A stretch of 64,000 nucleotides of DNA, taken from contig NZ_JAPJZI010000001.1 of NCBI RefSeq assembly GCF_027944115.1, positions 3,410,001 through 3,474,000 on the forward strand, written 5' to 3'. Positions within the stretch are counted from its first letter, which is position 1; the number at the start of each line of letters is the position of its first letter. Origin of the DNA: Hoeflea prorocentri. Lineage in GTDB: Bacteria; Pseudomonadota; Alphaproteobacteria; Rhizobiales; Rhizobiaceae. The notes beneath the pieces are model-generated. The model searched no databases. It was not told the origin of the DNA and saw nothing but the letters and a program-made list of their open reading frames with translations. Made by a program: the position numbers and the translations under genes. This document shows, in pieces, positions 8,352 to 24,004 of this stretch.

Positions 8352-9353
8352 ATGCGTTGGGCCCTTATTGGCGCAAGCCGTATTGCATCGAGCTACATGA
8401 TTGACGCTATTCGTGCGCAGGAGGACTCGGACATTGTTTCGGTGTTGAGTTCCGATACCGATCGCGGCAAGGCCTTTGCCGAAGCAAACAACATCCCCCG
8501 AAGCTACACCAACCTGGCCGAGCAACTCAACGACGCAAGCGTCGACGCGGTCTATATCTCCACCACCAATGAAAAACATCATTCACAGGCCCTGGCGGCG
8601 ATTGCGGCAGGTAAGCATGTCCTGTGCGAGAAACCGCTTGCCATGGCTGTCACCGACGCGGTGGAGATGGTTCGGGCCGCGGCGCAAAGGGGTGTGGTAT
8701 TCGCTACCAATCACCATCTGCGCAATGCTGGCTCGCATCTAGCCATTCATGACCTGATCACATCCGGCCGTATCGGCCGGGTTCTGAGTGCCCGTGTCTT
8801 TCATGCCGTCAGCTTGCCGGAACATCTTCAGGGCTGGCGCATCAACGATGCGTCCGCAGGTGGCGGCGTCATACCCGATATAACGGTCCATGACGCCGAT
8901 ACGATCCGCTTCCATCTTGAGGAGGACCCACAGGAGGTCGTCGCGAAATCGGCTGTCTCCGGGATGGGCGACGGTGTCGAGGACAGCGTTATGTCCGTGT
9001 GGTCCATGCCCTCGGGCGCAACGGTTCAGACCCATGAGAGTTTCACCCATCGTTTTGCCGGCAGCGGCATCGAGTTCCACGGCACGGACGGTTCCATCTT
9101 CGCAAGAAACGTGATGACGCAAGAACCGGTCGGAGAGATTCGCCTCGTTGATCCCGATGGCGAAACCATCATTCCCTTCCAAAATCACAATCTATATGTG
9201 CGGTCGCTGGGGCTGTTTGACGACGCTGTCCGCGGGACCGGACGCCCGTCGGCAGACGGTGTCGACGGCGTGAAATCACTGGCAGTCGCGCTGGCGGTGC
9301 GGGAAGCGGCGCAAACCGGAAAAGCGGTTCGCGTCGACTATGGAGACGTTTGA
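8352..9353 (+). CDS. afr: Gfo/Idh/MocA oxidoreductase resembling 1,5-anhydro-D-fructose reductase
   Basis: This 333-residue protein has an N-terminal NAD(P)-binding Rossmann fold (LIGASRIASSYM) and the Gfo/Idh CEKPLAM motif. From memory it matches the 1,5-anhydro-D-fructose reductase of Sinorhizobium morelense closely, through TNHHLRNA, FHAVSLPEHLQGWR and GGGVIPDITVHDADT. The catalytic set Lys94, Asp176 and His180 is present at the same positions. Afr reduces 1,5-anhydro-D-fructose with NADPH to 1,5-anhydro-D-mannitol. The start at 8352 follows GGAG. An upstream in-frame TTG at 8277 is rejected because it is the predicted -35 box. It is the first gene of the operon and ends one base before the CoA-transferase start. 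The substrate here may be a related anhydro- or ketosugar. Confidence 0.75.
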   Translation: MRWALIGASRIASSYMIDAIRAQEDSDIVSVLSSDTDRGKAFAEANNIPRSYTNLAEQLNDASVDAVYISTTNEKHHSQALAAIAAGKHVLCEKPLAMAVTDAVEMVRAAAQRGVVFATNHHLRNAGSHLAIHDLITSGRIGRVLSARVFHAVSLPEHLQGWRINDASAGGGVIPDITVHDADTIRFHLEEDPQEVVAKSAVSGMGDGVEDSVMSVWSMPSGATVQTHESFTHRFAGSGIEFHGTDGSIFARNVMTQEPVGEIRLVDPDGETIIPFQNHNLYVRSLGLFDDAVRGTGRPSADGVDGVKSLAVALAVREAAQTGKAVRVDYGDV

Positions 9354-9354
9354 G

Positions 9355-10929
9355 ATGTCCTCAAAACTTGTCCCTATGGACGAAGCCGCCAAGAGGATCG
9401 CGGACGGATCGGTTGTAACCGTCTCCTCATCCTCCGGTCTCGGCTGCCCCGACAGGATGCTTGAAGCAATCGGTGCCCGGTTCGACCGCGAGGGCCATCC
9501 AAGGGACCTGACAACGCTGCACCCGATCGCCGCCGGCGACATGTACGGCATCAAGGGCATCGATCACATTGCCAAGGACGGCCTTCTCTCCACGATCATC
9601 GCCGGGTCCTATCCGTCAGGCCCCTCTTCTCTGCCGATGCCCGCGATCTGGCGGATGGTGGTTGAAAACCGGGTTGCCGCCTACAACGTCCCGTCGGGCA
9701 TCCTTTTCGACATGCACCGTGACGCCGCCGCCAAACGCCCCGGCGTCCTGACCAAGATCGGTCTCGATACCTTTGTCGACCCGTCCCGTCAGGGATGCGC
9801 CATGAACGAAGAAGCCGCCGCGCGCCCGATCGTGTCGCGTATGGAGCTTGCCGGTGACACATGGCTGCATTTTCCCAACATTGTGCCCGATGTCGCGCTC
9901 ATCCGCGCGACAACCGCCGATGAGCGCGGCAATCTGACCTACGAACATGAAGGGGCCTATCTCGGTGGCCTTGAACAGGCGATCGCCGTTCGCAACCACG
10001 GCGGACTGGTCATCGCGCAGGTCAAACGGATAACCGCATCCGGCTCGTTGCGTCCGCACGACGTTCGGGTCCCCGGACACCTTGTCGATCTGATTGTCGT
10101 CGATCCCGATCAGCGCCAGACAACCGAAACCCTCTACGACCCCGCCATATCCGGCGAGATCATGCGACCCTGGTCGAGTTTCTCCATGGCCGAATACGGG
10201 GTTGAAAAAATTGTCGCCCGTCGCGCGGCCATGGAGTTGAAATCCGGTCAAACCGCCAATCTGGGATTTGGCATCTCCGCGATGGTTCCCCGGATACTGC
10301 TTGAGGCAGGCCAGGAGCAGGCAGTGACGTGGGCCATAGAACAGGGCGCGACCGGCGGCATGCCGCTCACCGGCTTTGCCTTCGGCTGCGCATCCAATGC
10401 CGATGCCTATATGCCCTCCCCGGACCAGTTCATCTACTTCCAGGGCGGCGGCTTCGATGTCTCTTTCCTGTCCTTCCTGGAAATCGACGTCGAGGGAAAC
10501 GTCAATGTCTCTAAACTCGGCAAAAAACCTTACCTGACAGCCGGTTGCGGGGGTTTTGTCGATATCACGGCGAATGCGAGAAAAATCGTCTTTTCGGGCC
10601 TTTTCGAGGCCGGTGCGGATCTCGATCTGAGCGACCATGCGCTCACGGTGAGATCGCCGGGCAAGTTCACCAAGATGGTCGACGAAGTTGAACACGTGAC
10701 CTTTTCAGGCCGGCGCGCGCGTGCGCTCAGCCAGGATGTTCTCTACATCACTGAACGCTGCGTTATGCGGCTGACCGAGACAGGTCTGACCGCGACCGAA
10801 ATCATGCCGGGCATCGATCCGGGCAGAGACATCGTCGATGCCTCGCAAGGGCGGGTGCGGTTGGCGGACAATCTTGCCGAGATGCCCGGTGCCTTGCTCC
10901 GCGAAGAACCGATGGAGCTGAGCCTTTGA
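9355..10929 (+). CDS. Fused-subunit acyl-CoA:acetate/3-ketoacid CoA-transferase
   Basis: This family I CoA-transferase of 524 residues has alpha and beta halves fused, the same architecture as acetate CoA-transferase YdiF and propionate CoA-transferase. The N-terminal half includes SGLGCPDRMLEAIG. The catalytic glutamate lies in EQGATGGMP (Glu329), and the second half carries FQGGGFDVSFLSF. It would transfer CoA from acetyl- or succinyl-CoA to a carboxylic acid. The next gene is an enoyl-CoA hydratase and the one after an aldehyde dehydrogenase, so it probably activates an acid made in the pathway. Its stop overlaps the next start. Confidence 0.85.
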   Translation: MSSKLVPMDEAAKRIADGSVVTVSSSSGLGCPDRMLEAIGARFDREGHPRDLTTLHPIAAGDMYGIKGIDHIAKDGLLSTIIAGSYPSGPSSLPMPAIWRMVVENRVAAYNVPSGILFDMHRDAAAKRPGVLTKIGLDTFVDPSRQGCAMNEEAAARPIVSRMELAGDTWLHFPNIVPDVALIRATTADERGNLTYEHEGAYLGGLEQAIAVRNHGGLVIAQVKRITASGSLRPHDVRVPGHLVDLIVVDPDQRQTTETLYDPAISGEIMRPWSSFSMAEYGVEKIVARRAAMELKSGQTANLGFGISAMVPRILLEAGQEQAVTWAIEQGATGGMPLTGFAFGCASNADAYMPSPDQFIYFQGGGFDVSFLSFLEIDVEGNVNVSKLGKKPYLTAGCGGFVDITANARKIVFSGLFEAGADLDLSDHALTVRSPGKFTKMVDEVEHVTFSGRRARALSQDVLYITERCVMRLTETGLTATEIMPGIDPGRDIVDASQGRVRLADNLAEMPGALLREEPMELSL

Positions 10930-11693
10930 GTGCCGTGCATCTGAGACGCAGCGGCGCAACCGCCGAACTGCGTCTGGACAACCCAACCAAGCTCAATGCT
11001 TTGACCGCCGGGATGCTGGCGGAAATCGAGCGTCATTGCGGAGCGCTTGAAATGGACGCGTCCGTTCGGGCCGTTGTCATATCGGCCGAGGAAAGCCGGG
11101 CATTTTGTGCCGGCGCCGACATTCTGGCCTGGTCGGCGCTCAGCCCCCGCGATTTTGCCCGCCATTGGGTGCGTGACGGCCATCGCATCTTTGACCGGCT
11201 GGCGCGTCTGTCCAAGCCGACGATCGCCGCGATCAACGGACACGCCTTTGGCGGCGGGCTGGAGTTTGCGGCAGTGGCCGATCTACGGGTGATGTCACCC
11301 GAGGCAACGCTTGCGCTTCCCGAAGCCGATGTGGGCATTGTCCCCGGCTGGTCCGGCACGCAGCGCCTCATCCGCCTGCTTGGCGAACCGTTGGTCAAGG
11401 AAATGGCGCTTTTCGGCAGGCGCATCACCCCCGAACGTGCCTTGTCGGCGGGATTCATCGCCGAGATATCCGACGATCCGTTGGCGCGTGCACGCGAGAT
11501 CGCCGAAGCACTCTCGAGCCGATCGAGCCAGGCGACAGAAGTCGCAAAATATATGATTCACGCGGCAGTCGGAGAAGACCGCGATGCCATGATCGAAGCA
11601 CTCGGCGCCGGCATGATCGGACCGACACAAGACCGTGCCGAAGGTGTCGCCGCGTTTCGCGAAAAGCGCAAACCGAATTTTTCCGGAACATAG
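10926..11693 (+). CDS. Enoyl-CoA hydratase/isomerase family protein
   Basis: This is a 255-residue crotonase-fold enzyme. It has the oxyanion-hole segment AFCAGAD and the second one NGHAFGGGLEFA. Both catalytic glutamates of classical hydratases are present: Glu113 in GGGLEF and Glu133 in LPEADVG. The usual PGAGGTQ is PGWSGTQ here. Classical members hydrate trans-2-enoyl-CoA; some family members instead cleave side chains by a hydratase-lyase reaction. The start is a TTG at 10926 that overlaps the CoA-transferase stop as TTGA, giving the family N-terminus. Paired with the CoA-transferase and the aldehyde dehydrogenase, it could act on a CoA ester to release an aldehyde, which is inference. 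Confidence 0.85.
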   Translation: MSAVHLRRSGATAELRLDNPTKLNALTAGMLAEIERHCGALEMDASVRAVVISAEESRAFCAGADILAWSALSPRDFARHWVRDGHRIFDRLARLSKPTIAAINGHAFGGGLEFAAVADLRVMSPEATLALPEADVGIVPGWSGTQRLIRLLGEPLVKEMALFGRRITPERALSAGFIAEISDDPLARAREIAEALSSRSSQATEVAKYMIHAAVGEDRDAMIEALGAGMIGPTQDRAEGVAAFREKRKPNFSGT

Positions 11694-11695
11694 AT

Positions 11696-13228
11696 ATGAA
11701 CGATTTGACTGTTGTCTCAAAAAGCAGAGCAGATATTCCGGCGGATCCTTTCCTCGCCCGTCATCTGATTGGCGGCGATTGGCGCGAAAGTCACGACGGG
11801 CAGACCTTCGAACGGCTTTCCCCGTCTCATGGAACGGTTGTCACCCGTGCCAGCATGGGGGGGACAAATGACGTCGATGCCGCAATCGACGCTGCACGCA
11901 AGGCATTCGACGCAGGAAGCTGGTCGAGGATCAGCGGTCAGAAACGCGCCACGTTTCTTTTGAAGATCGCCGATCTGATCGACCGGGACCGGCAGCGCAT
12001 CGCGCTGATGGAAACACTCGAGTCCGGCAAGCCGATCAGTCAGGCGGAGGCGGAGATCGAAGGCGCGTCCGACCTGTGGCGCTATGCGGCTTCGCTGGCT
12101 CGTACGGTGCACGGTGACAGCCACAACAGTCTGGGGAGCGAGTTTCTTGGTCTCGTCCTGAAGGAACCCGTCGGCGTCGTCTCAATCATCACGCCGTGGA
12201 ATTTTCCGTTCCTGATCGTTTCGCAGAAACTGCCCTTTGCGCTCGCTGCCGGGTGTACGGCGGTGATCAAACCTTCGGAACTGACGCCTGCGACCACCAC
12301 GATCCTGGGGGAGCTTTGCATAGAGGCCGGAATCCCTTCAGGCGTGGTAAATATTGTCCTCGGCTATGGCGACCCGGTGGGAACACGCATGACGACGGAC
12401 AGCCGTGTGAACATGGTGACATTCACCGGATCGACCGCTGTCGGCAAATCCATCGTCTCCGCAGCCTCCGGAACATTGAAAAAGGTCTCACTGGAGCTCG
12501 GGGGCAAGAACCCGCAGGTCATCTTCCCGGATGCGGATGTCGAAAGCGCGGTCGATGCCGTTGTTTTCGGCGTCTATTTCAATGCCGGCGAATGCTGCAA
12601 CTCCGGATCCCGGATCATCGTGCACGAAGATATTGCCGAGGCGTTCATTGCGCAGACCGTTGCCCTGTCGCGGCAGGTTCCCTTCGGAGATCCTCTCGAT
12701 CCGTCCACCCAGGTCGGCGCGATCATAACGCCGGAACATCAGAACAAAATCGACACCTATGTCCGCGATGCCGCGAATGCCGGGGCAGACATCCGCTTGG
12801 GCGGCGGCGGTCTGACGGTGCCGGGCCTTGACGGGCAATTCTACCAGCCGACTGTCATTGCGAATGTAGAAAGCAGCCAGCCGATCGCACGCGAGGAAGT
12901 GTTTGGACCGGTTCTTTCCGTTTTGACTTTCAGAACGATCGACGAGGCCATCGCTCTGGTCAATGACGCCGAATACGGCCTTTCGGCAGGTGTCTGGAGC
13001 GAAAATGTCCATACCTGCCTTGAATTCGCGCGCCGCGCGGAAGCCGGAACCGTCTGGACCAACACATGGATGGACGGTTTTGCCGAACTGCCGTTTGGCG
13101 GTGTCAAGGAGAGCGGACAAGGCCGGGAGCTTGGCAAATACGGACTGGAGGAGTTTCTCGAGGCGAAGACCGTGACAATGAGGATTGGGAAATCGCGCAA
13201 GCCTTGGGTTGAGCCGCGGGCAAGTTAG
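11696..13228 (+). CDS. NAD(P)+-dependent aldehyde dehydrogenase
   Basis: This is a 510-residue ALDH-superfamily enzyme with ITPWNFP (Asn169 oxyanion), KPSELTP for the cofactor, FTGSTAVG, the general base in LELGGK (Glu267) and the nucleophile in NAGECCNSG (Cys301). The C-terminal EVFGPVLSV and GGVKESGQGRELG are complete. It begins two bases after the enoyl-CoA hydratase stop, so the two are translated together. It probably oxidises an aldehyde formed in the pathway to an acid. The substrate cannot be read from sequence. Confidence 0.9.
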   Translation: MNDLTVVSKSRADIPADPFLARHLIGGDWRESHDGQTFERLSPSHGTVVTRASMGGTNDVDAAIDAARKAFDAGSWSRISGQKRATFLLKIADLIDRDRQRIALMETLESGKPISQAEAEIEGASDLWRYAASLARTVHGDSHNSLGSEFLGLVLKEPVGVVSIITPWNFPFLIVSQKLPFALAAGCTAVIKPSELTPATTTILGELCIEAGIPSGVVNIVLGYGDPVGTRMTTDSRVNMVTFTGSTAVGKSIVSAASGTLKKVSLELGGKNPQVIFPDADVESAVDAVVFGVYFNAGECCNSGSRIIVHEDIAEAFIAQTVALSRQVPFGDPLDPSTQVGAIITPEHQNKIDTYVRDAANAGADIRLGGGGLTVPGLDGQFYQPTVIANVESSQPIAREEVFGPVLSVLTFRTIDEAIALVNDAEYGLSAGVWSENVHTCLEFARRAEAGTVWTNTWMDGFAELPFGGVKESGQGRELGKYGLEEFLEAKTVTMRIGKSRKPWVEPRAS

Positions 13229-13275: not shown

Positions 13276-14523
13276 ATGCGTAAATTTTTAACAATGATGA
13301 CAGCCGCAAGTGCGTTGATGGCAGCAAGCACCAGCCTTCACGCAGAAGATGTGGAGGTACTTCACTGGTGGACTTCGGGCGGTGAAGCCGCCGCACTCAA
13401 CGTCCTGAAGCAAGACCTCGAGCAGCAGGGCATCGGATGGCAGGACATGCCGGTTGCCGGCGGGGGCGGCTCACAGGCCATGACGGTTCTGCGTGCCCGT
13501 GTCACATCGGGCAACCCGCCGACCGCTGTCCAGATGCTTGGCTTCGACATTCTCGACTGGGCGAAGGAAGGCGCGCTTGCCGATCTGAATGTTCAGGCGA
13601 GCCAGGAAGGCTGGGATAATGTCGTCCCGGCAGCCCTGCAGGAATTTGCAAAACACGACGGCAAGTGGGTTTCAGCACCTGTCAACGTTCACTCCACCAA
13701 CTGGGTGTGGGCGAACAAGGCGATCCTGGACGAACTCGGCATCGCTGTTCCGACAAGCTGGGACGAGTTCGTGGCCGCGCTTGAAAAGGTCAAGGCATCC
13801 GGCAAGACCGCCATTGCACACGGCGGTCAGCCCTGGCAGGACGCCACCGTTTTCGACGCGGTGGCCATGTCGACGGGCGGCCCGGATTTCTACAAAAAGG
13901 CCTTTATCGACCTTGATGAAGAGGCTCTGGGCTCGGACACGATGAAAGAGACGTTCGACCGCATGGCCGTGATCCGCTCCCATGTGGATGACAACTTCTC
14001 CGGCCGCGACTGGAACCTGGCAACCGCCATGGTCATCAACGGAGATGCTGCGTTTCAGATGATGGGCGACTGGGCGAAGGGCGAATTCCTGAATGCGGGC
14101 AAAACACCCGATCAGGACTTTCTCTGTTTCCGTTTCCCCGGCACGCAGGATCAGGTGACATTCAATGCGGACCAGTTCGCAATGTTTGCGCAAGGCTCCG
14201 AAGTCGGCAAGGAACAGGCCGCCCTTGCGACCGCAATCCTGTCGCCGAGCTTCCAGTCCGCGTTCAACGTGGTCAAGGGCTCCGTGCCGGCACGTACGGA
14301 TGTTTCCGATGAGGCGTTCGATGCCTGCGGCAAGAAAGGCATGGCTGACTTGAAGAGCGCTGCGGCAAGCGGCAATCTCTATGGCTCGATGGCGCATGGA
14401 CATGCCAATCCGGCTGCTATCAAGAATGCCATGTATGATGTGATTACTGCCCATTTCAACGGCGAATATGACAGTGAAACCGCTGTCGAGGAGCTTGTGA
14501 CGGCAGTTCAGATCAACCGGTAG
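13276..14523 (+). CDS. ABC transporter sugar-binding protein (CUT1 family)
   Basis: This is the periplasmic substrate-binding protein of a carbohydrate ABC importer, 415 residues. It has a cleavable signal peptide (basic MRKF, hydrophobic core, [10 protein letters not shown] processing region). The mature N-terminus, [15 protein letters not shown], is typical of family 1 glucose/mannose-like binding proteins. A good ribosome-binding site (GGGAGG) precedes the ATG. It follows the aldehyde dehydrogenase by 47 bases and is followed by a strong hairpin before the permease genes, which is the usual way to keep the binding protein in excess. Likely ligands are a mono- or disaccharide or a glycoside. 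Confidence 0.9.
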
Positions 14524-14530
14524 AAACCCT

Positions 14531-14559
14531 GGAAGAGCGGTGGAATACACCGCTCTTCC
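14531..14559 (+). other. Intercistronic hairpin after the sugar-binding-protein gene
   Basis: A perfect 12-base-pair stem (GGAAGAGCGGTG paired with CACCGCTCTTCC) closes a 5-base loop, seven bases after the stop of the binding-protein gene. No T-tract follows, so it is more likely an mRNA-stabilising or attenuating structure than a full terminator. The 154-base gap to the first permease gene otherwise holds nothing I can identify. Confidence 0.7.
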
Positions 14560-14677
14560 CTTGAAATGACAGCTGCAATGGCCCGAAACGGCATACGGGC
14601 TCACCTTGCAGCAGGCACGGGTTGGAGCGTGCGCCAGTTGGGTGCACAACACCATGCTCCAGGTCAGGAATTGAGAT

Positions 14678-15583
14678 ATGTCTTATTCAGAGACGGCAAA
14701 CCCGCGCGGGTCTGTTCTTGACAGATTGCGCGACGCGCTGCCCAAACTTGTGTTGAGCCCGACCGTCGCAATTGTTGCGATCTTTGTTTACGGCTTTATC
14801 GCATTCACCCTTTATCTGTCCTTCACGAACAGCCGGATCCTGCCGACCTTCGACTGGGTCGGATGGAAGAACTACGAAAACCTGTTCAAAATCCGCGCCT
14901 GGGACACAGCCGTCTCGAACCTTGTAATATTCGGCCTGCTCTACATCGCGATCTGTTGCATATTGGGGCTGTTGCTGGCGATCCTGCTTGACCAGAAAAT
15001 TCGCGCGGAAGGCTTCATCCGCACCATTTACCTCTATCCCATGGCCCTGAGCTTCATCGTGACCGGTGTTGCCTGGAAGTGGTTCCTGGACCCGGGCATC
15101 GGCCTTGAAGCCGTTGTTCAGGGGTGGGGATGGGAGAGTTTCCGCTTCAACTGGATCAAGGACCGAAACATGGCGATCTATACGATCGTCATCGCCGCGG
15201 TCTGGCAGACGTCGGGCTTTGTCATGGCGATGTTTCTGGCAGGTCTGCGCGGCATTGACAGCGAGATGCTGAAGGCGGCCCAGATCGACGGGGCTTCAAC
15301 ATTTGCCCTTTACCGGCGCATTGTGATCCCGCAGCTGCGCCCGGCCTTCATGTCGGCCTTTGTCGTGCTCGCCCATATGGCGATCAAATCCTACGACCTC
15401 GTTATCGCCCTGACGGGCGGCGGCCCGGGAACGGCAACAGAGCTGCCGGCGACATTCATGTATTCCTACACTTTCACCCGAAACCAGATGGGAATTGGCG
15501 CGGCATCCGCCGTCATGATGCTCATGACGATCGCAGCAATCATCGTTCCCTATCTTTGGTCCGAACTGAGGGAGAAAAAGTGA
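14678..15583 (+). CDS. Sugar ABC transporter permease 1 (MalF/UgpA type)
   Basis: This integral membrane subunit of a CUT1 importer has 301 residues and about six membrane spans. The cytoplasmic EAA loop that docks to the ATPase is visible around EMLKAAQIDGASTFALYRR. A short N-terminal cytoplasmic tail (SYSETANPRGSVLDRL) precedes the first span. Its TGA overlaps the ATG of the second permease. It pairs with that protein and the downstream ATPase. Confidence 0.92.
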   Translation: MSYSETANPRGSVLDRLRDALPKLVLSPTVAIVAIFVYGFIAFTLYLSFTNSRILPTFDWVGWKNYENLFKIRAWDTAVSNLVIFGLLYIAICCILGLLLAILLDQKIRAEGFIRTIYLYPMALSFIVTGVAWKWFLDPGIGLEAVVQGWGWESFRFNWIKDRNMAIYTIVIAAVWQTSGFVMAMFLAGLRGIDSEMLKAAQIDGASTFALYRRIVIPQLRPAFMSAFVVLAHMAIKSYDLVIALTGGGPGTATELPATFMYSYTFTRNQMGIGAASAVMMLMTIAAIIVPYLWSELREKK

Positions 15584-16513: not shown

Positions 16514-17623
16514 ATGGGTTTTCTCGACATCAAACAGGCGACCAAGTTCTACGGATCCGTGCAGGTCCTTCATGAAACCGACATTTCGGTGGAGGAAGGC
16601 GAGTTCCTGGTGCTGGTCGGTCCGTCCGGCTGCGGCAAGTCCACGCTGCTCAACATGATCGCCGGACTTGAGGATATCACAACCGGCGAGATCGCCATTC
16701 GTGGCCGCAGCATGAACGGGGTCAAACCGGCGGACCGGAATATCGCCATGGTGTTCCAGTCCTACGCGCTCTACCCGAACATGACGGTCTCGGGAAACAT
16801 CTCCTTCGGCATGGAGATGCACGGCATCCCAAAAGCCGAGCGGGCGAGGCGGATCGCACAGGTTGCGGATCTTCTGCAGATCAGCCACCTGCTGGAGCGC
16901 AAGCCGGGTCAGCTCTCCGGCGGCCAGCGCCAGCGCGTCGCCATGGGCCGGGCGCTGGTGCGTGAACCGGATGTGTTCCTGTTCGACGAACCGCTCTCGA
17001 ACCTTGACGCAAAGCTGCGCGTCGACATGCGCACCGAGATCAAGAAGCTCCATCAGAAACTGGGCACCACGATCGTCTATGTCACCCATGATCAGATCGA
17101 GGCACTGACGCTCTCCACCCGTATCGCGGTCATGTATGGCGGCTATGTCCAGCAATTGGGCACGCCGAAGGAAATCTACGACAATCCGGCCAACATGTTC
17201 GTGGCCGGCTTCATGGGATCGCCCTCGATGAATCTGTTCCCTGCAAAGGTTGTCGATTCCAGCGGCAAACCGGCCGCCGAGGTTCGCCTTTCGGACGGCA
17301 AGACGGCGGCCATTCCTTTCGCCGACGGCGCCTTGTCGTCGAACGTCGGCCGCGACATCATTCTGGGCATCCGGCCGGAAGCGATTACGGACCGGGACGG
17401 TGCGGACAGGAACTCCCAGTCGGTTCACATGGTCGATGCGCCGGTCGAGGTGACGGAGCCGGCCGGGTCCGACACATTCGTCGTCAGCCAGATCGGCGGC
17501 AAGGACGTGACGGGCCGCTTCCGCGCGGATGTGTCCGTCAACGCCGGCGATATCTTCCCCTTCGCATTCAATATGGAGAAGGCCGTGGTCTTCGATCCGC
17601 AAAGCGAGAACAGGATCGCCTGA
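16514..17623 (+). CDS. Sugar ABC transporter ATPase (MalK/UgpC/MsmK type)
   Basis: This is a 369-residue ABC ATPase. It has Walker A GPSGCGKST, Q-loop VFQSYALYPNMTV, signature LSGGQRQRVAMGRAL, Walker B VFLFDEPLSNLD and H-loop VTHDQ. A C-terminal MalK-like OB/TOBE domain follows (GIRPEAI and later). It powers the importer formed with the two permeases directly upstream. Because the operon has its own ATPase, the transport system is self-contained. Confidence 0.95.
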   Translation: MGFLDIKQATKFYGSVQVLHETDISVEEGEFLVLVGPSGCGKSTLLNMIAGLEDITTGEIAIRGRSMNGVKPADRNIAMVFQSYALYPNMTVSGNISFGMEMHGIPKAERARRIAQVADLLQISHLLERKPGQLSGGQRQRVAMGRALVREPDVFLFDEPLSNLDAKLRVDMRTEIKKLHQKLGTTIVYVTHDQIEALTLSTRIAVMYGGYVQQLGTPKEIYDNPANMFVAGFMGSPSMNLFPAKVVDSSGKPAAEVRLSDGKTAAIPFADGALSSNVGRDIILGIRPEAITDRDGADRNSQSVHMVDAPVEVTEPAGSDTFVVSQIGGKDVTGRFRADVSVNAGDIFPFAFNMEKAVVFDPQSENRIA

Positions 17624-17626: not shown

Positions 17627-19111
17627 ATGGGTGCCGCGCCGGACATCGTGATCATCGGAAGCGGGATGGGCGGTGCGAGCCTCGCCGCCGGTCTTGCGCC
17701 CTCGGGCGCCAAGATTACGATCCTCGAGCGCGGATATCAGATACCCGACGACGCCCCTGCCCGCGACCCGTGGCGCATCTACACAAACAGTGCGTTCCGC
17801 TCCCGCGAAACATGGCTCGATGAACACGGGACGCCTTTCGAGCCAGGCAACTACTACAATGTCGGCGGAAATTCGAAACTCTACGGCGCAGTGCTGATCC
17901 GTTACCGGCAGGAAGACTTTGACGAACTGGAACATCATGACGGGATTTCTCCCGCCTGGCCTCTCGGCTATGAGGAGATCGCCCCATGGTATGACGCCGC
18001 CGAACGGCTCTATCAGGTGCGGGGAGATGCTGCTTCCGATACAACCGAACCGCCGCACTCGGCATCCTATCCCTTTCCTCCTGTCCCCGATGAAGAGGCC
18101 ATCGGAATTGCGCGGCAGCGGCTTGAGAAGGCCGGTGTCAGACCCTTCAGCCTGCCGCTCGGTATCGACATTGATCGCTGGCTTTGCAGCGGAAGCACCG
18201 GCTGGGACGGCTACCCGGACTTGAGATGCGGAAAGATGGATGCGGAGACCTGCGGTCTTTCAGAAGCCCTTGCCCACGACAATGTCGAGCTCGTCACCGG
18301 CGCGGAAGTCACCGCTCTCAAGGCGGGACCGCAAAGCGGGCGGATCGACGAGGTCGTCTATCTGAAAAACGGCGTTGAAACGCGCCTGCGCCCAAACGTG
18401 GTCGCGCTGTGCGCCGGAGCCGTACAATCGGCCGCCCTGCTCCTCAAATCCGGCATCGCCAACAGCTCGGACTATGTCGGCCGGTGTTTCATGAACCACA
18501 ATGCAACGGCAATGATCGCGCTCGATCCACGCTTCCGCAATGATGCGGTCTACCAGAAGACATTCGGCATCAATGACTGGTACCTTTCGGACGGAAATGG
18601 CGGCAAACCGTTGGGGAACGTTCAGCTCCTCGGACGCGTGACGCCGGATATCCTGAAAATTCAGGTTCCGCAGCTTCCCATGTTCGCAGCCCGCTGGGTT
18701 TCGGGACACGCGCTGGACCTTTATCTCATCTCCGAAGACCTGCCCGATCCTGAGAGCCGCGTCGTCCTGAAGAACCACAGGGTGCAACTGATCTGGCGGC
18801 GGAGCAATTTGACCGCCCACCGGCAGCTTGTGGCAAAGACCCGAAAGACGCTGCGGAAAGCCGGCTTTCCGGTCATCCTCACACGGCTGTTCGACGGCCG
18901 GGTGCCGTCGCATCAATGCGGCACGGTTCGCATGGGCAACGATCCGGCCACCTCCGTGCTCGATCCGCAATGCCGGTCCTGGGATCATCCGAATTTGTAC
19001 GTCACCGATGCGTCGGCGCTGCCGACCTCCGCCGCCGTCAATCCCGCCCTCACCGTTGCCGCCCTGTCGCTTCGTGCGGCGGAAACCATCAAACAGGATT
19101 TTTTGCAATGA
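17627..19111 (+). CDS. GMC-family FAD oxidoreductase, first copy
   Basis: This is a 494-residue glucose-methanol-choline type flavoenzyme. It has the FAD Rossmann motif IIGSGMGGASLA at the N-terminus, the NVGGNSKLYGAVL flavin segment, and the C-terminal catalytic block with SHQCGTVRMG (active-site His) and AAVNPALT. No signal peptide is visible, so it acts in the cytoplasm or with a partner. It is only distantly related to the second GMC gene of this operon at 19884 and looks closer to sugar dehydrogenases. It probably oxidises a hydroxyl of the imported sugar. Its stop overlaps the SDR start as ATGA. Confidence 0.85.
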   Translation: MGAAPDIVIIGSGMGGASLAAGLAPSGAKITILERGYQIPDDAPARDPWRIYTNSAFRSRETWLDEHGTPFEPGNYYNVGGNSKLYGAVLIRYRQEDFDELEHHDGISPAWPLGYEEIAPWYDAAERLYQVRGDAASDTTEPPHSASYPFPPVPDEEAIGIARQRLEKAGVRPFSLPLGIDIDRWLCSGSTGWDGYPDLRCGKMDAETCGLSEALAHDNVELVTGAEVTALKAGPQSGRIDEVVYLKNGVETRLRPNVVALCAGAVQSAALLLKSGIANSSDYVGRCFMNHNATAMIALDPRFRNDAVYQKTFGINDWYLSDGNGGKPLGNVQLLGRVTPDILKIQVPQLPMFAARWVSGHALDLYLISEDLPDPESRVVLKNHRVQLIWRRSNLTAHRQLVAKTRKTLRKAGFPVILTRLFDGRVPSHQCGTVRMGNDPATSVLDPQCRSWDHPNLYVTDASALPTSAAVNPALTVAALSLRAAETIKQDFLQ

Positions 19112-19866
19112 GCAGAATTGCACTTGTGACCGGCGGCCAAAGGGGTATCGGGCTCGGCATCGCGGATGCTTTGGTGACAGCCGGATACAAGGTCGCGCTT
19201 GCGTCCCGCAGCAGGCCGGACTCGCCTGACGTTGTCGCAGCGCTTCAGCAGCTGGGTTCCGACGCGGCCTATTTCACCCATGACTTGCAGGACATTGAAG
19301 GCCATGCATCCTTGTTTGAGAAGGTCGAACGACAATTTGGACAGGTCTCAACGCTTGTCTCAAACGCCGGTGTTCCGGCAAGGGTTCGCGGTGACATGCT
19401 CGACATTCAGCCGGACAATTTCGACTTTGTTCTCGGCATCAATCTGAGGGGCGCGTTCTTCCTGGCGCAGGAGGCGGCGCGGCGCATGCTGGAGATGTCC
19501 GGCGACGCCTATCGTTCAATCACCTTCGTGACATCGGTCAGCGCATCAATGGTCTCGGTCGAACGCGCCGAATACTGTGTCTCCAAGGCCGGTGCCGCGA
19601 TGATGGCAGAGCTGTTCGCCGTTCGCCTGGCGCCGCATGGCGTCGGCGTCTTCGAACTAAGGCCCGGCATCATCGAAACCGGCATGACCGAAGGTGTCAA
19701 AGACAAATACACGGCCCGTATCGAAGGCGGTCTCGTTCCGGCTCAAAGGTGGGGACAGCCGGAAGATATCGGGTCCATCGTGGTGCCGATCGCAGATGGT
19801 CGGATGGCTTTTGCGACAGGGTCAGCCATTAACGTCGATGGCGGCCTGGCAATTCCGCGCCTTTAG
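19108..19866 (+). CDS. Short-chain dehydrogenase/reductase (SDR)
   Basis: This is a classical SDR of 252 residues with nucleotide motif TGGQRGIGLGIA, SNAGV, a catalytic serine in VTSVSA, and YCVSK. The C-terminal NVDGGLAIPRL is typical of 3-oxoacyl reductase-like members. The start at 19108 overlaps the GMC stop. An in-frame extension to 18916 is rejected because it runs inside the GMC gene. It likely interconverts a keto and a hydroxyl group of a pathway intermediate. Confidence 0.88.
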   Translation: MSRIALVTGGQRGIGLGIADALVTAGYKVALASRSRPDSPDVVAALQQLGSDAAYFTHDLQDIEGHASLFEKVERQFGQVSTLVSNAGVPARVRGDMLDIQPDNFDFVLGINLRGAFFLAQEAARRMLEMSGDAYRSITFVTSVSASMVSVERAEYCVSKAGAAMMAELFAVRLAPHGVGVFELRPGIIETGMTEGVKDKYTARIEGGLVPAQRWGQPEDIGSIVVPIADGRMAFATGSAINVDGGLAIPRL

Positions 19867-19883
19867 GTTACCCGAGAGATATT

Positions 19884-21476
19884 ATGAACAAAGGATACGA
19901 CTTCATCATCATCGGCGGTGGCAGTGCTGGCTCCGTGGTTGCCACCAGACTATCGGAAAATCCGGACGTTCAGGTGCTGCTGCTTGAGGCGGGCGGTCGC
20001 GATTGGCACCCCTTTTACCATCTGCCGGCCGGCTTTGCGAAAATGACCAAGGGGATCGGCTCCTGGGGCTGGCACACTGTTCCTCAAAGGAACATGAAGG
20101 ACCGGGTGTTCAGATACACCCAGGCGAAGGTGATCGGCGGTGGCTCGTCGATCAATGCGCAAATCTACACGCGCGGCAATGCGCTCGACTATGACGAATG
20201 GCGTCAGATGGGGTGCGAGGGCTGGGGCTATGACGATGTCCTGCCCTACTTCAAGAAGGCCGAGGACAACGACACGTTCGAGGACAAATATCATGGCAAG
20301 GGCGGCCCACTCGGTGTGTCGCAACCGCGCGCACCCCTGGCGATCTGCGAAGCCTATTTTGCCGCAGCCGCGGAACGCGGCATACCGCGCAATCAAGACG
20401 TTACCGGCGAAAAGCAGGACGGCGTCGCCTACTACCAGCTGACCCAGAGAAATGCGCGCAGATCATCCGCCGCCATGGCCTATCTCGCCCCCAATCGCGG
20501 CAGGCAGAACCTTCGCGTCAAAACCGGAGTTCAAGTCCGCAGAATTGTTGTTGAAAACGGTGTTGCCAAGGGTGTCGAACTCATGGATGGCTCGCGGCTC
20601 ACCGCTGCGTGTGAGGTCATCCTGTCTTCCGGATCGATCGGTTCGCCCAGACTGCTGCAGCTTTCCGGCATCGGTCCGGCAGATCATCTGGAAAGCCTCG
20701 GCATTTCCGTGGTGTGCGACCAGCCGGAGGTCGGCTCAAACCTTCAGGATCATCTCGATCTTTATTGCATCTGCGAGGTCAGCGGCCCGCACACCTATGA
20801 CCGCTACGCCAAGCCTCTCTGGTCGGCCCTTGCAGGCTTGCAGTATCTTTTGACCAAGCGCGGCCCCGTCTCTTCCAGCCTGTTTGAAACCGGCGGGTTC
20901 TGGTACGCCGATCCCGAAGCCCGCTCACCCGACCTTCAATTCCATCTTGGTCTTGGAACGGGGATTGAATCGGGTGTTGCCGCCATGCCCGATGGCGGCG
21001 TGACGCTCAACTCCTGCTATCTGCGCCCCAGATCACGCGGAAGCGTGCGCCTGCAAAGCGGCAATCCTGAAGATGCTCCACTCATCGACCCGAACTATCT
21101 CGATGATCCGCAGGACCGTGAAATGTCCATCCGCGGGCTCAAGCTGACCCAGGAAATCCTGGCGCAAGCAGCGCTGAAACCGTTCATCAAAGCCGAGCGC
21201 CTTCCAGGACCGGCAGTGAAAACGGATGACGACTATTTTGGATTCATCTGCGAACACTCCAAAACGTCGCACCATGCGGCCGGAACCTGCCGCATGGGAC
21301 CGGGCGACGGCGCCGTTGTCGACCCGCGTTTGCGCTTCAACGGTCTTGAGCATCTGAGAGTGGTCGACGCCTCCATTATGCCAACAGTGATTTCTTCCAA
21401 TACCAACGCTGCGGCCATCATGATCGGCGAAAAGGCCGCCGATATGATCCGCCAAGATAACGGTGCCCTGTCATGA
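19884..21476 (+). CDS. GMC-family FAD oxidoreductase, second copy (choline-dehydrogenase-like)
   Basis: This is a 530-residue GMC enzyme with full signatures. The N-terminal FAD motif is GGGSAGSVVATRLSE followed by LLEAGG; signature 1 is GGGSSINAQIYTRG; signature 2 is SSGSIGSPRLLQLSGIGP. The catalytic SHHAAGTCRMG precedes SNTNAAAIMIGEKAAD. This architecture fits BetA/alcohol-dehydrogenase members. Together with the first GMC gene 770 bases upstream it suggests two successive flavin-dependent alcohol oxidations. Its stop overlaps the next start as ATGA. Confidence 0.9.
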   Translation: MNKGYDFIIIGGGSAGSVVATRLSENPDVQVLLLEAGGRDWHPFYHLPAGFAKMTKGIGSWGWHTVPQRNMKDRVFRYTQAKVIGGGSSINAQIYTRGNALDYDEWRQMGCEGWGYDDVLPYFKKAEDNDTFEDKYHGKGGPLGVSQPRAPLAICEAYFAAAAERGIPRNQDVTGEKQDGVAYYQLTQRNARRSSAAMAYLAPNRGRQNLRVKTGVQVRRIVVENGVAKGVELMDGSRLTAACEVILSSGSIGSPRLLQLSGIGPADHLESLGISVVCDQPEVGSNLQDHLDLYCICEVSGPHTYDRYAKPLWSALAGLQYLLTKRGPVSSSLFETGGFWYADPEARSPDLQFHLGLGTGIESGVAAMPDGGVTLNSCYLRPRSRGSVRLQSGNPEDAPLIDPNYLDDPQDREMSIRGLKLTQEILAQAALKPFIKAERLPGPAVKTDDDYFGFICEHSKTSHHAAGTCRMGPGDGAVVDPRLRFNGLEHLRVVDASIMPTVISSNTNAAAIMIGEKAADMIRQDNGALS

Positions 21477-21787
21477 TCCGTCACATTGTCCTGATCAAAT
21501 TCCAGCCGGACTTCCCGGAGGAGAAAATCCGCGAACTCTTTGCGGAGCTGCTTGTTATCCGGTCTCAGGTACCCGGAATCCTGGGCATCACGTCGGGCCG
21601 AAGCGAGAGCCCGGAAAAGATCGAACGCGGTTACATGCACGGCTTTGTTGTCGACTTCGAAGACTGGGGTGCTCTGGAAAACTATCAGAACCACCCCGAT
21701 CACAAGGCACTGGGCGCAAAGCTCGTGGCAAATGCCACAGGCGGCCTTGACGGAATCCTTGTTGTCGACATTCCAGTCGAGGCCTGA
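21473..21787 (+). CDS. Dabb-family (stress-responsive alpha/beta barrel) protein
   Basis: This is a 104-residue Dabb-domain protein with IRHIVLIKFQPDFPEEKIREL at the N-terminus and HGFVVDFEDWGALENYQNHPDHKAL in the middle, ending in IDIP-like VVDIPVE. Dabb proteins are dimeric ferredoxin-like barrels; some bind or cyclise small hydrophobic ligands, but most are uncharacterised. It overlaps the upstream GMC stop by 4 bases, so it is made with that enzyme and may act with it or on its product. Confidence 0.88.
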   Translation: MIRHIVLIKFQPDFPEEKIRELFAELLVIRSQVPGILGITSGRSESPEKIERGYMHGFVVDFEDWGALENYQNHPDHKALGAKLVANATGGLDGILVVDIPVEA

Positions 21788-21818
21788 ACGGCAATCCGAC
21801 CCGCTGTGGGAGTAACTG

Positions 21819-22988
21819 ATGCTGAGCCTGTCCCTTCCAACCTATAACAATCGACTGGAGGACTATCGTCTGTCCGGTGATGCATTGACGCCGCGCGCAC
21901 CGCGGATTCCCCTGACGCGAACGGCCTTTGCTGCCGCCCATGTCGTTTCAGACCCAAGGGCTGAACGCGATCCCTGGTTGGGCTCTCCGGCTGTCGATTG
22001 GGACAATACGCTTGGCTTCAGAAACTGGCTTTGGGATCAGGGTCTCGGACTGGCGGAAGCCATGGACACAGCCCAGCGCGGCATGGGGGTCGACTGGCCG
22101 ACGGCCAAAGAGCTGATCGAGCGGACCATGCGCGAGGCGAGGGCCCATCCCCTGAGGCCCCGCGTTGCATGCGGCGCCGGCACGGACCAGAAAGACCTCA
22201 GTGAACTCCGGAACGCGGACGACATCACCGCCGCTTATGGCGAACAGATGGAGGCCATCGAGGCTGCCGGCGGTCAGATCATCCTCATGGCATCGCGTGC
22301 GTTTCCGGCGATCAAAGCCGGGCCGGACGAATACGCCAAAGTCTACGGAAAACTGCTCGATCAGGCCTCGGAACCGGTTATCCTGCATTGGCTCGGCGAT
22401 ATGTTCGATCCCGCCCTGACAGGATATTGGGGTTCCAATGATGTTGGCGCGGCCTCGGACGCGGTCCTTTCAATCATCAACGCGCATGAGAAAAAAGTCG
22501 ACGGCATCAAGATTTCCCTGCTTGATCGGACCCATGAAGAAGCCTTTCGAGCGCGCTTGCCAGACGGCGTACGCCTCTATACCGGCGACGATTTCAACTA
22601 TGCCGATCTAATTGAAGGCGATGGAACCAGGTTTTCCCACGCCTTGCTCGGCGCATTTGCGGCAATCGCCCCGGCGGCCAGCCAAGCACTGGAAGCCCTG
22701 GCGGAGGGCGACACGCAAGCCTATCGCCAACTGTTTGACCCGACTGTCCCGCTCAGCCGGGAGATATTCAAGACGCCCACGCAGTTTTACAAGGCCGGCA
22801 TTGCGTTTCTTGCCTGGCTAAACGATGCGCAAAGCCACTTCATCATGCCAGGCGGTTTTCAGTCTTCAAGAGAGATTACCCACTATGCAGAGGTCTTTCG
22901 GCTTGCAGACAAAGCGCGCTTGCTGTCAAAACCCGATGTCGCAGCCCAACGGATGACGCTGCTGCTGAAACTGCATGGTATCGAATAG
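21819..22988 (+). CDS. DUF993 family protein (dihydrodipicolinate-synthase-like)
   Basis: This 389-residue protein is recognised as DUF993, a family related to the DapA/N-acetylneuraminate lyase TIM barrels. The N-terminus (LPTYNNRLEDYRL), the FRNWLWDQGLGLAEAMDTAQ segment and the late HYAEVFRLADKARLL are characteristic. The likely Schiff-base lysine is Lys231 in VDGIKISLLD, matching the GIK of DapA-like aldolases. A retro-aldol cleavage of a keto-sugar-acid is plausible, but the reaction of the family is not established to my knowledge. It is the last enzyme gene before the regulator. Confidence 0.85.
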   Translation: MLSLSLPTYNNRLEDYRLSGDALTPRAPRIPLTRTAFAAAHVVSDPRAERDPWLGSPAVDWDNTLGFRNWLWDQGLGLAEAMDTAQRGMGVDWPTAKELIERTMREARAHPLRPRVACGAGTDQKDLSELRNADDITAAYGEQMEAIEAAGGQIILMASRAFPAIKAGPDEYAKVYGKLLDQASEPVILHWLGDMFDPALTGYWGSNDVGAASDAVLSIINAHEKKVDGIKISLLDRTHEEAFRARLPDGVRLYTGDDFNYADLIEGDGTRFSHALLGAFAAIAPAASQALEALAEGDTQAYRQLFDPTVPLSREIFKTPTQFYKAGIAFLAWLNDAQSHFIMPGGFQSSREITHYAEVFRLADKARLLSKPDVAAQRMTLLLKLHGIE

Positions 22989-22993
22989 GCAAT

Positions 22994-24004
22994 ATGAAGA
23001 AACGACCGACAATTCTGGATGTCGCACGGCACGCGGGTGTATCAAAATCGACCGTGTCGCTGGTTCTGCAGAACTCCACTTTGGTCAAGGAAACAACGCG
23101 CGAGGACGTTGCGAAGGCAATTGCCGACCTCGGCTATGTCTATAACAGATCCGCCGCCGGGCTGCGCGGCGCGGCGTCCGGGCTGATCGGCCTGATCATC
23201 AACGATCTGCGAAACCCTTTCTTTACGGAGTTTGCCGCGAGCGCCCAGATGACGTTTGCGCAAAAAGGGTATTCGACCGTCATCGCCAATACCGACGAGG
23301 ACCCGGACATACAGGCGCAGGTGATCGACTCGATGATCGAGCATGATGTGTCGGCCTTTGTCATCTCTCCGTCTTACGGCGGAGACGAGCAGCCGTTCGA
23401 CCGCATCCGCAGGGCCGGCATTCCAACGATGCAGGTCTTGCGGCAGGTCGATGAAAGAACCGATCTTTTTCCGTTCGCATCGCACGACTATAAGGCCGGC
23501 GGCGTGCTGGCGACCGAGCACCTTATTGATCTGGGCTGTCGCAACATTGTATTTGTGGGGGGCCTGGAAGACAGGCCGATCACGCTCGAAAGAATGTCCG
23601 GATATGTCGAAACGATGGGTGCCCACGCCCTTGTGCCCAGTGTATTCCACGGCCGACCGTCTCGGGTCTTCGGGCGGGAAATCGCCTTGAAATTCCTCGA
23701 CTCGCACAGACAAATCGACGCGGCCATTTGTTTCAGCGATCTTGTCGCGCTCGGCATGCTGAGCGGATTAGCCGAAGTCGGCATCCGGGTTGGCGAGGAC
23801 TTCAAAATCGTCGGCTTCGACGATATCGAGGAAAGCTCGCTGGCCTATCCTCGCTTGAGCTCCGTGCGCTGCGATACGGCTCTGTTCGGAAAAAATGCCG
23901 CCGAAGCGATGCTGGCCTGGATCGTCGACGGCGAGCGCCCCCCCGACACAAAACGTTATGGTGTCGAACTGACAAAGCGGCAGTCCAGTCTGGGGGCCGG
24001 ATGA
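22994..24004 (+). CDS. LacI-family transcriptional repressor of the catabolic operon
   Basis: This is a 336-residue LacI/GalR regulator. The N-terminal HTH (PTILDVARHAGVSKSTVSLVL) is followed by the hinge region NRSAAGLRGAASG and a periplasmic-binding-protein-like sugar domain (LIGLIINDLRNPFFTEF onward). It lies five bases after DUF993, as the last gene of the operon. It therefore most likely represses its own operon through the twin palindromes at 8286-8334, which have the CG-centred form the family uses. The inducer would be the imported sugar or an early intermediate. Confidence 0.92.
   Translation: MKKRPTILDVARHAGVSKSTVSLVLQNSTLVKETTREDVAKAIADLGYVYNRSAAGLRGAASGLIGLIINDLRNPFFTEFAASAQMTFAQKGYSTVIANTDEDPDIQAQVIDSMIEHDVSAFVISPSYGGDEQPFDRIRRAGIPTMQVLRQVDERTDLFPFASHDYKAGGVLATEHLIDLGCRNIVFVGGLEDRPITLERMSGYVETMGAHALVPSVFHGRPSRVFGREIALKFLDSHRQIDAAICFSDLVALGMLSGLAEVGIRVGEDFKIVGFDDIEESSLAYPRLSSVRCDTALFGKNAAEAMLAWIVDGERPPDTKRYGVELTKRQSSLGAG

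Follow-up and report, generated by a model that had tools for sequence, protein, structure and literature searches.

Red algae and fungi form 1,5-anhydrofructose out of starch or glycogen. In Rhizobiaceae it is reduced to 1,5-anhydromannitol, which is then hydroxylated at C1 to give mannose, according to a review passage (PMC12441222, citing Kuhn 2006); the same passage of this 2025 review describes the C1-hydroxylating enzyme as P450-like and not yet identified. The closest described locus is the afr locus of Sinorhizobium meliloti and S. morelense, of which 1,5-anhydro-D-fructose reductase (AFR) alone has been studied in the literature reachable to us, with no pathway found for the remaining genes. 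Here we analyze the related operon of Hoeflea prorocentri, located at positions 8352-24004 of a 64,000-nucleotide stretch of contig NZ_JAPJZI010000001.1 (hereafter the window). It joins afr to genes for a CoA-transferase (CoAT), an enoyl-CoA hydratase (ECH), an aldehyde dehydrogenase (ALDH), a sugar ATP-binding cassette (ABC) importer with its binding protein (SBP), two GMC flavoenzymes (GMC1, GMC2), a short-chain dehydrogenase/reductase (SDR), a Dabb protein, a DUF993 protein and a LacI-type regulator. The published mannose route leaves no task for the CoA-transferase, the hydratase, ALDH, the two GMC enzymes, the SDR and DUF993. We give an even chance to the operon encoding a LacI-controlled, phosphate-free catabolic route, in which an acid would be made within the pathway and pass through a CoA step, followed by cleavage by DUF993 and exit as glycerate.

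By sequence comparison we established the parts of this operon, its conserved neighbors, its operator, the intactness of the catalytic residues, the glucose type of its importer and the glycerate kinase of its relatives. The ORF listing contains 14 open frames, all on the + strand, that fill 8352-24004 with overlaps or small gaps (-14 to 154 bp), confirming the one-direction operon described in a first-pass annotation of this DNA. The gene families named there were also borne out by Pfam, NCBIfam and homologues:

8286-8299 and 8320-8333, no strand: two perfect palindromic LacI-type operators, TTGGAACGTTCCAA, putatively bound by LacI
8352-9353, + strand: afr, Gfo/Idh/MocA reductase of the 1,5-anhydro-D-fructose reductase type (phmmer, Pfam)
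9340-10929, + strand: CoAT, fused type I CoA-transferase, YdiF/FadX-like (PF01144; 2ahu, 9.3e-93)
10926-11693, + strand: ECH, crotonase-family enoyl-CoA hydratase (PF00378)
11696-13228, + strand: ALDH, aldehyde dehydrogenase (3u4j, 4.2e-157; 7w5l, 4.5e-147)
13276-14523, + strand: SBP, CUT1 binding protein of a glucose-binding family (67% identity to 4r2b)
14531-14559, + strand: strong RNA hairpin in the gap between SBP and first permease (fold compared with shuffles)
14678-15583, + strand: sugar ABC permease 1 (annotated homologues, tblastn)
15583-16509, + strand: sugar ABC permease 2 (annotated homologues, tblastn)
16514-17623, + strand: UgpC/MalK-type ABC ATPase (NCBIfam NF008653, 450.7 against a cut-off of 432)
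17627-19111, + strand: GMC1, similar to FAD sugar dehydrogenases/oxidases (Pfam, solved relatives)
19108-19866, + strand: SDR of the PRK12745 '3-ketoacyl-ACP reductase' type (NF009386, 329.9 against a cut-off of 250)
19884-21476, + strand: GMC2, choline/alcohol-dehydrogenase-like GMC flavoenzyme (Pfam, NCBIfam, solved relatives)
21473-21787, + strand: Dabb, small A/B-barrel protein (PF07876)
21819-22988, + strand: DUF993, TIM barrel of the DHDPS superfamily, putative class I aldolase with Lys231 (PF06187, fold)
22994-24004, + strand: LacI-family regulator, presumed binder of TTGGAACGTTCCAA (NCBIfam, operator co-occurrence)

The intergenic distances from afr to lacI are, in order, -14, -4, 2, 47, 154, -1, 4, 3, -4, 17, -4, 31 and 5 bp. 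Three starts were chosen by homology and are shorter than in the ORF listing: Afr at 8352 (not 8277), the second permease at 15583 (not 15556) and SDR at 19108 (not 18916). A Pfam scan of ten operon proteins returned Gfo/Idh (Afr), CoA_trans, ECH, Aldedh, SBP_bac_1, two GMC proteins, SDR, Dabb and DUF993. LacI and the ATPase were identified via NCBIfam, and both permeases via annotated homologues and tblastn, with no family scan. No sugar kinase was found among the 14 genes by ORF, Pfam and NCBIfam analysis.

Eleven of the proteins are 42.5-73.4% identical to those of an operon in S. meliloti Ak57 with conserved gene order, and Afr, at 56.5% identity, matches a protein annotated there as 1,5-anhydro-D-fructose reductase. 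This comparison identifies the operon as orthologous to the afr operon of S. meliloti, and so as not entirely unknown. The S. meliloti/S. morelense locus also shares the adjoining lacI and the same operator. In strain Ak57, unlike in the window, the DUF993 gene is divergent and the last gene of the operon encodes a glycerate kinase. We presume that afr corresponds to SMc04400, and SMc04390, SMc04391 and SMc04392 to GMC2, SDR and GMC1, going by gene names and locus numbering. The accessible part of PMC12542648 names SMc04390 an L-sorbose dehydrogenase, SMc04391 an SDR and SMc04392 a dehydrogenase, and it places these three, along with SMc04132 and SMc04133, among the proteins with a negative log2 change where phaR is deleted. 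Our literature searches on DUF993, the S. meliloti loci, anhydrofructose catabolism and the gene combination found no pathway for the whole set in searchable papers. Beyond its first gene no assigned pathway was found for the operon in the accessible literature. Its presence in S. meliloti, a standard laboratory species, makes the question testable there.

The DUF993 protein was used to scan species genomes, and 80 loci (L numbers) were kept from 116 relatives. The main set comprises 73 of these loci, with a DUF993 protein at least 65% identical to that of the window; the other seven stand at 54-57%. At loci long enough to hold the respective gene, neighbors on the same strand were GMC1 (67/68), SDR (70/71), GMC2 (71/71), Dabb (65/72) and lacI (66/68), as well as the importer genes for SBP (61/65), the permeases (63/67 each) and the ATPase (62/68). 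Afr, CoAT, ECH and ALDH lie at or beyond the 10-kb flank, and for these four genes no locus had the length required for such a count; in the 73 loci as a whole, same-strand copies were observed in 3, 8, 13 and 58, respectively. Judged by these sequences, the 14 genes are one conserved unit and their arrangement is not due to chance. Across the 73 loci most neighbors recur not only on the same strand but also close by.

Record titles of the kept loci include Roseibium/Labrenzia, Nitratireductor, Hoeflea, Rhizobium, Ciceribacter, Ruegeria, Roseobacter, Paracoccus and Granulosicoccus. Among the loci at 54-57% identity, six (L105 and L107-L111) have lacI-afr-CoAT-ECH-ALDH-importer with a DUF993 gene that is divergent to it, and the remaining one, L106 from Bradyrhizobium, has a different neighborhood. 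Annotated records from Peteryoungia (L142), a Roseibium porphyridii plasmid (L140), Rhizobium daejeonense (L143) and S. meliloti Ak57 (L145) agree on the gene set. In Paraburkholderia PGU19 (L144) we found afr, CoAT, ECH, ALDH, the importer, SDR, GMC2, DUF993 and a lacI, with no match to GMC1 or Dabb. The gene set thus occurs in Roseibium and its kin, Rhizobiaceae, Rhodobacterales, Granulosicoccus and Paraburkholderia. The neighborhood check proposed earlier, DUF993 next to afr, CoAT and two GMC genes, therefore came out positive in Rhizobiales and Rhodobacterales, and in Paraburkholderia without a detected GMC1, but two other DUF993 contexts (see below) lack GMC1; the association holds strongly for a single kind of neighborhood and not for the whole family. 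The plasmid of the red-alga-derived R. porphyridii (NZ_CP120864.1, 49 kb) carries a glycerate kinase and a HAD phosphatase gene in addition to the operon, and an extra lacI sits between its ALDH and SBP genes.

Upstream of afr, two perfect copies of TTGGAACGTTCCAA end 52 and 18 bp before the start of the gene. When the window was shuffled 100 times, a mean of 0.23 sites with at most two mismatches was obtained, and two or more sites occurred in 2/100 shuffles. The rest of the genome holds no further perfect copy and one site with a single mismatch (G000:C1:1105841-1105854); a control pattern gave 0. A scan of all loci with at most one mismatch, which applies to the following counts as well, returned 49 matches compared to 0, 3, 0, 0, 0 and 0 for six shuffled palindromes; the 49 include overlapping DNA stretches (L112/L155/L156, L028/L127 and L113/L120), and the sites of L040, L048 and L080 fall within GMC1 and are not intergenic. 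Where at least 300 bp precede the first operon gene, a site is present within 1.5 kb in 23/32 loci. Eight of the nine loci without one are other CoAT neighborhoods (L122-L126, L141, L146, L187), and L183 starts inside afr. In the Ensifer, Microvirga and Rhizobium types the operator lies between lacI and the divergent DUF993 gene, and sites near both starts were found in L108, L109, L129, L130, L131 and L143. Through this shared operator, DUF993 is linked to the sugar operon by evidence other than gene adjacency. We infer that TTGGAACGTTCCAA is a LacI operator that defines one regulon. The joining of anhydrosugar-type redox enzymes, sugar import and CoA-ester chemistry in a co-regulated unit, as first read from this DNA, is supported by these results. 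An operator-like site between the ATPase and GMC1 genes in two loci (L039:5779 and L051:6126) suggests a second, internal control point. By locus numbering, we take SMc04401 to be the S. meliloti counterpart of the LacI protein. The accessible part of PMC4560400 lists a regulon for SMc04401, and the accessible main text of Ravcheev 2014 does not name the regulator of the operon. Given that regulon, and as far as the orthology by numbering holds, LacI control of the operon may not be new.

The importer narrows down the substrate class. Its SBP is 67% identical to 4r2b (Oant_3817), which was solved with bound glucose, followed by 8hqq (46%) and ppGBP entries (44-46%); SAR11_0769 and ppGBP, the next-nearest relatives, bind glucose or galactose. 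The SBP thus lies nearest to glucose-bound structures and probably belongs to a glucose-binding CUT1 system. The closest solved SBPs bind glucose or galactose as free sugars and do not call for an acyl-bearing glycoside as the substrate; the operon would import a glucose-like monosaccharide, possibly a 1,5-anhydrohexose. The S. meliloti SBP is presumably smc04396, by locus numbering. Induction of smc04396 by dextrin is reported in the accessible part of PMC4960864.

The redox enzymes retain the residues presumed from known motifs to be catalytic. Among Gfo/Idh proteins Afr is nearest to the solved AFRs (phmmer: 4koa, 2e-112; 2glx, 1.9e-111; next match, 3.2e-24), and Lys94, Asp176 and His180 are invariant in 19/19 distinct sequences. 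It is therefore of the 1,5-anhydro-D-fructose reductase type, with a putative NADPH-dependent conversion of anhydrofructose to anhydromannitol. Levoglucosan and 3-keto-glycoside pathways (LGDH, BT_2158, BT_2159) likewise use Gfo/Idh dehydrogenases on glucose-type sugars; as candidates they were rejected: with models whose cut-offs are 650, 750 and 650 bits, Afr scores 79.4, 39.5 and 58.8, the first of these for NF052479 (levoglucosan dehydrogenase). The best solved match of ALDH, 3u4j, is named only an NAD-dependent aldehyde dehydrogenase, and the second-best, 7w5l, is an L-sorbosone dehydrogenase; the catalytic Cys and Glu are invariant in 59/59 sequences. GMC1 is nearest to FAD-glucose dehydrogenase and the large subunits of fructose dehydrogenase and more weakly similar to pyranose oxidases, with His429 and Asn472 invariant in 74/74 sequences; no small-subunit gene accompanies it in the operon. 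GMC2 keeps His464 in 81/81 and Asn508 in 80/81 sequences. The operon resembles the L-sorbose/L-sorbosone dehydrogenase pair of Gluconobacter in its ALDH, by the match to 7w5l, and in GMC2, a relative of GMC alcohol dehydrogenases/oxidases that is likened by family and not by direct sequence, sorbose dehydrogenase being a GMC family member. To our knowledge, the Gluconobacter pair comes without importer, CoA genes or aldolase. The SDR scores above the NCBIfam cut-off of a family named for 3-ketoacyl-ACP reductase (NF009386), and its Ser-Tyr-Lys residues are invariant in 82/82 sequences. Dabb is related to 3bb5 and olivetolic acid cyclase and also matches the ABM monooxygenase family, at a score below the cut-off (21.6 compared to 23.1 bits). 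No P450 and no oxygenase family above cut-off was found in the ten operon proteins scanned with Pfam.

Both CoA enzymes appear intact. CoAT belongs to the type I CoA-transferases, and Glu334, which we take to be the catalytic glutamate from the family motif, is invariant in 30/30 sequences. ECH is a crotonase-family protein with Glu113 and Glu133 invariant in 31/31; these are presumably the catalytic residues, by position in the rat enzyme. Homologues of CoAT elsewhere occur in other contexts with no defined substrate, such as with an SDR and a TRAP-like importer (L122, by eye) or in an Escherichia coli module. A rare sugar route that also uses CoA chemistry and ends in glycerate is the oxidative deoxyribose/deoxyribonate pathway, with a cleavage enzyme (BKACE) of the DUF849 family. 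This pathway was rejected as a model: no DUF849 family was found in the ten operon proteins scanned, and DUF993 belongs to a different superfamily.

The DUF993 protein was modeled with a pLDDT of 89.8. In a Foldseek search 4dnh came first, followed by listed entries for dihydrodipicolinate synthase (DHDPS), N-acetylneuraminate lyase (NAL) and 2-keto-3-deoxygluconate (KDG) aldolase (KDGA) at E values of 9e-9 to 9e-7, with target-normalized TM-scores of 0.65-0.85; the model thus has a DHDPS-type TIM barrel. 4dnh is SMc04132, a DUF993-family structure titled hypothetical, and its matching Ak57 locus, judged by gene content, is one of the other neighborhood types described below (L147, type B). 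Lys231 is present in 141/141 DUF993 sequences and aligns with the Schiff-base lysine of DHDPS, K161 on strand 6, albeit with a weak profile score. DUF993 is therefore a putative class I aldolase that would form its Schiff base via Lys231. A sugar route with DUF993 cleavage, if true, would supply a function for a family with a solved structure that is titled hypothetical.

A glycerate kinase gene was found in 26/65 loci of the window type with at least 3 kb downstream, in 24 of them at most 300 bp after lacI, and also in L140, L142, L143 and L145, where it ends the divergent arrangement of L143 and L145. The recurring glycerate kinase and the absence of a sugar kinase from the 14 genes suggest that phosphate probably enters at glycerate, after chain cleavage. 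We refer to the operon as in the window as type A and to two other DUF993 neighborhoods as types B and C. In type B, DUF993 is joined by a distinct Gfo/Idh protein and, in most cases, by a xylose-isomerase-like barrel. Thirty short loci (L002-L031) come from the matches that scored best at order level; DUF993 has this Gfo/Idh gene beside it in 29 of them, and CoAT instead in L028. An enolase-superfamily protein occurs in seven of the 15 type-B loci that exceed 10 kb, a tripartite-tricarboxylate membrane protein in five, and CoAT or ECH in none. Enolase-superfamily members can eliminate water from free acids. The enolase-like protein in 7/15 long type-B loci, where type A has CoAT and ECH, is one argument for a CoA-dependent elimination. 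In L134, L136, L137 and L147 this protein has about 470 amino acids and is barely recognized by Pfam, and it is accompanied by an unusual Gfo/Idh protein; some of these four loci also bear tripartite tricarboxylate transporter genes.

Type C (L124, L126, L139, L146, L187) has SDR, DUF993 and an isomerase-like protein; L126 and L187 were labeled type A by rule and are type C by content. CoAT and ECH are present in 4/5 of these loci, as divergent copies (38-41% identical) in L187, and were not detected in the L139 stretch. A second DUF993 system of S. meliloti, on RCAM1750 p_1 (L146), consists of a Peripla_BP_4-type sugar importer, alcohol dehydrogenase, ALDH, GMC, CoAT and ECH, as well as glycerate kinase, acyl-CoA dehydrogenase, SDR, DUF993, an isomerase-like barrel and an electron transfer flavoprotein (ETF). 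Here GMC2, ALDH, CoAT, ECH, SDR, DUF993 and glycerate kinase recur with a different sugar importer, and they look like a core that is fed by varied importers and redox enzymes. A tree built from 141 DUF993 proteins splits type A into two clades: the larger stands by itself, and the Ensifer-Microvirga kind lies next to types B and C. Type B occupies more than one group, with low support between groups, and type C forms one clade that includes one unlabeled locus as well as L126 and L187. The kind of neighborhood tracks the DUF993 clades, and type A is not one clade.

We propose the following scheme, in which we infer both the substrate and the order of the steps. The sugar would enter the cell unphosphorylated, and Afr, GMC1 and possibly the SDR would adjust secondary hydroxyls. 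The CH2OH group would be oxidized to CHO and COOH by GMC2 and then ALDH. CoAT would form the acyl-CoA, thereby acidifying the alpha-hydrogen, and ECH could then remove or add water across C-alpha and C-beta. With a polyhydroxy acid, loss of water would give an enol and then a 2-keto-3-deoxy compound; with a 1,5-anhydro-hexuronate, the ring would be opened by this same elimination together with rehydration. A return of the CoA to the next acid could be a further task of CoAT. DUF993 would then cleave the carbon chain through a Schiff base at Lys231; the triose fragment would enter glycolysis as glycerate via glycerate kinase, and the second C3 fragment would exit as pyruvate or acyl-CoA. The degradation of a hexose or 1,5-anhydrohexose in this way, via a CoA thioester, de- and rehydration by the crotonase, the split into a glycerate precursor and a second C3 unit by DUF993 as a new class I aldolase family and recycling of CoA between product and substrate acids by CoAT, is a less probable version of the route, and the exact 1,5-anhydro version is doubtful. 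If true, carbohydrate metabolism would gain a new branch in this sugar route via CoA esters and DUF993 cleavage. The use of 1,5-anhydro sugars by aerobic bacteria might also be settled by it, for which the review passage names only the first enzyme (PMC12441222).

Several observations weigh against this scheme. The published anhydrofructose route ends at mannose and needs none of the CoA or DUF993 genes. Rhodobacterales variants (L077, L097) have no afr, ALDH or importer genes in the neighborhood and keep CoAT and ECH. No glycerate kinase is nearby in 39/65 type-A loci or present in the window; the only match of the genome lies at C1:336452, compared to C1:3418352 for the operon, and no operator site with at most one mismatch was found at it. 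The enolase-superfamily protein is missing from 8/15 long type-B loci, so that its replacement of CoAT and ECH is only half borne out. Type C adds an acyl-CoA dehydrogenase (L124, L139, L146) and ETF (L139, L146), which fits the beta-oxidation of a deoxy acid better than the dehydration of a polyhydroxy acid. Taken alone, the hhalign match of DUF993 with DHDPS is a weak one (probability 3.6%, E 0.012), which makes the fold the stronger evidence for this relation. Compared to DHDPS, KDG aldolase and N-acetylneuraminate lyase, DUF993 is about 95 residues longer, and it lacks both features of the 2-keto-acid aldolases: instead of the GTTGE carboxylate motif it has, by strand order, its own DTxQRGMGxxW (Met is Leu once in 141 sequences, the other named residues being invariant), and His190 stands at the position of DHDPS Tyr133. 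Therefore, DUF993 may not act on a 2-keto acid, and the release of pyruvate is doubtful. The roles of SDR and Dabb are the least certain of the scheme, the place of the SDR being unexplained. An attempt at a single scheme that also covers the acyl-CoA dehydrogenase of type C and the enolase-like protein of type B was not fully successful.

Four other explanations were weighed against the CoA-dependent route. The first, which we consider unlikely, is that GMC1 and GMC2 make 2-keto-aldoses of the glucosone type, which ALDH oxidizes to 2-keto-aldonates in the manner of sorbosone dehydrogenase. DUF993 would split the 2-keto acid into hydroxypyruvate and glyceraldehyde, both exiting as glycerate, while the CoA genes would handle a by-product and Afr would be a side valve reducing surplus osone; AFR does also reduce osones. 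This would suit the likeness of ALDH to L-sorbosone dehydrogenase, the annotation of SMc04390 as L-sorbose dehydrogenase, the resemblance of GMC1 to FAD-glucose dehydrogenase and, more weakly, pyranose oxidases, the recurring glycerate kinase and a sub-cut-off stretch in L086 that resembles tartronate-semialdehyde reductase (235.8 compared to 340.75). But CoAT and ECH are kept in L077 and L097, where Afr, ALDH and importer are missing nearby, and so are unlikely to be accessory, and DUF993 is without the carboxylate motif for a 2-keto acid.

Quite unlikely is the published catabolism, with Afr producing 1,5-anhydromannitol, C1 hydroxylation leading to mannose and the other genes supporting this or doing otherwise. 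It agrees with the orthology and annotation of Afr, with the review passage (PMC12441222) and with the formation of anhydrofructose by red algae, the operon being carried by the 49-kb plasmid of the Porphyridium-derived R. porphyridii; going by its sub-cut-off ABM match, Dabb might act as an oxygenase. However, the Pfam scan of ten operon proteins gave no P450 or other oxygenase family above cut-off, and the CoA-transferase, hydratase, DUF993 and glycerate kinase would be purposeless.

We regard as very unlikely that the substrate is an acid- or acyl-bearing glycoside or anhydrosugar, whose sugar would be taken by the redox enzymes and whose acyl part by the CoA enzymes. The resemblance of CoAT, ECH and SDR, together with the type-C acyl-CoA dehydrogenase and ETF, to beta-oxidation speaks for it, but the nearest solved SBPs bind free glucose or galactose, and no glycosidase, esterase or thiolase is present among the 14 genes. 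Moreover, the sugar itself could be the source of the acid, by way of GMC2 and the sorbosone-dehydrogenase-like ALDH, so that the CoA genes need no acyl glycoside. The substrate idea of the first-pass annotation, which was of this kind, is thus partly right, except that the acid can arise within the pathway. A loose juxtaposition of unrelated metabolic genes, to which the lack of Dabb, Afr, ALDH, importer or GMC1 in individual loci might point, is extremely improbable given neighbors kept over 73 loci, one operator for both halves where they are split and neighborhoods that track the DUF993 clades.

The E. coli module mentioned above (CP054241, L141:13721-20706) holds a CoAT-ECH pair 62% and 44% identical to that of the window, a LacI gene, a two-frame Nramp-like transporter (by eye) and an FAD_binding_2 flavoprotein. 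In the one record checked it sits between dnaB and a quinone oxidoreductase gene. Its CoAT-ECH DNA is present at 99% identity or more in 825/5426 complete E. coli genomes, and no function was found for it.

A scan for sigma-70 promoters returned 1 promoter-like site where 5.6 were expected and was dropped. Directly upstream of the operon lies a LysR gene (7303-8199, + strand), preceded on the - strand (2704-7207) by FAD-oxidase and Fe-S/CCG domain genes that resemble glycolate oxidase GlcD, GlcE and GlcF. Downstream, a separate convergent group on the - strand (24066-28815) encodes a TAXI-family receptor of the TRAP type, a fused TRAP membrane protein and a sulfatase/phosphoester hydrolase. 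Within the operon, the 154-bp gap between the SBP and permease genes, the longest of all, contains a perfect 12-bp hairpin; folding of 14520-14680 gave z = -4.73, with 0/200 shuffles equally stable, and the hairpin could possibly set the ratio of SBP to permease.

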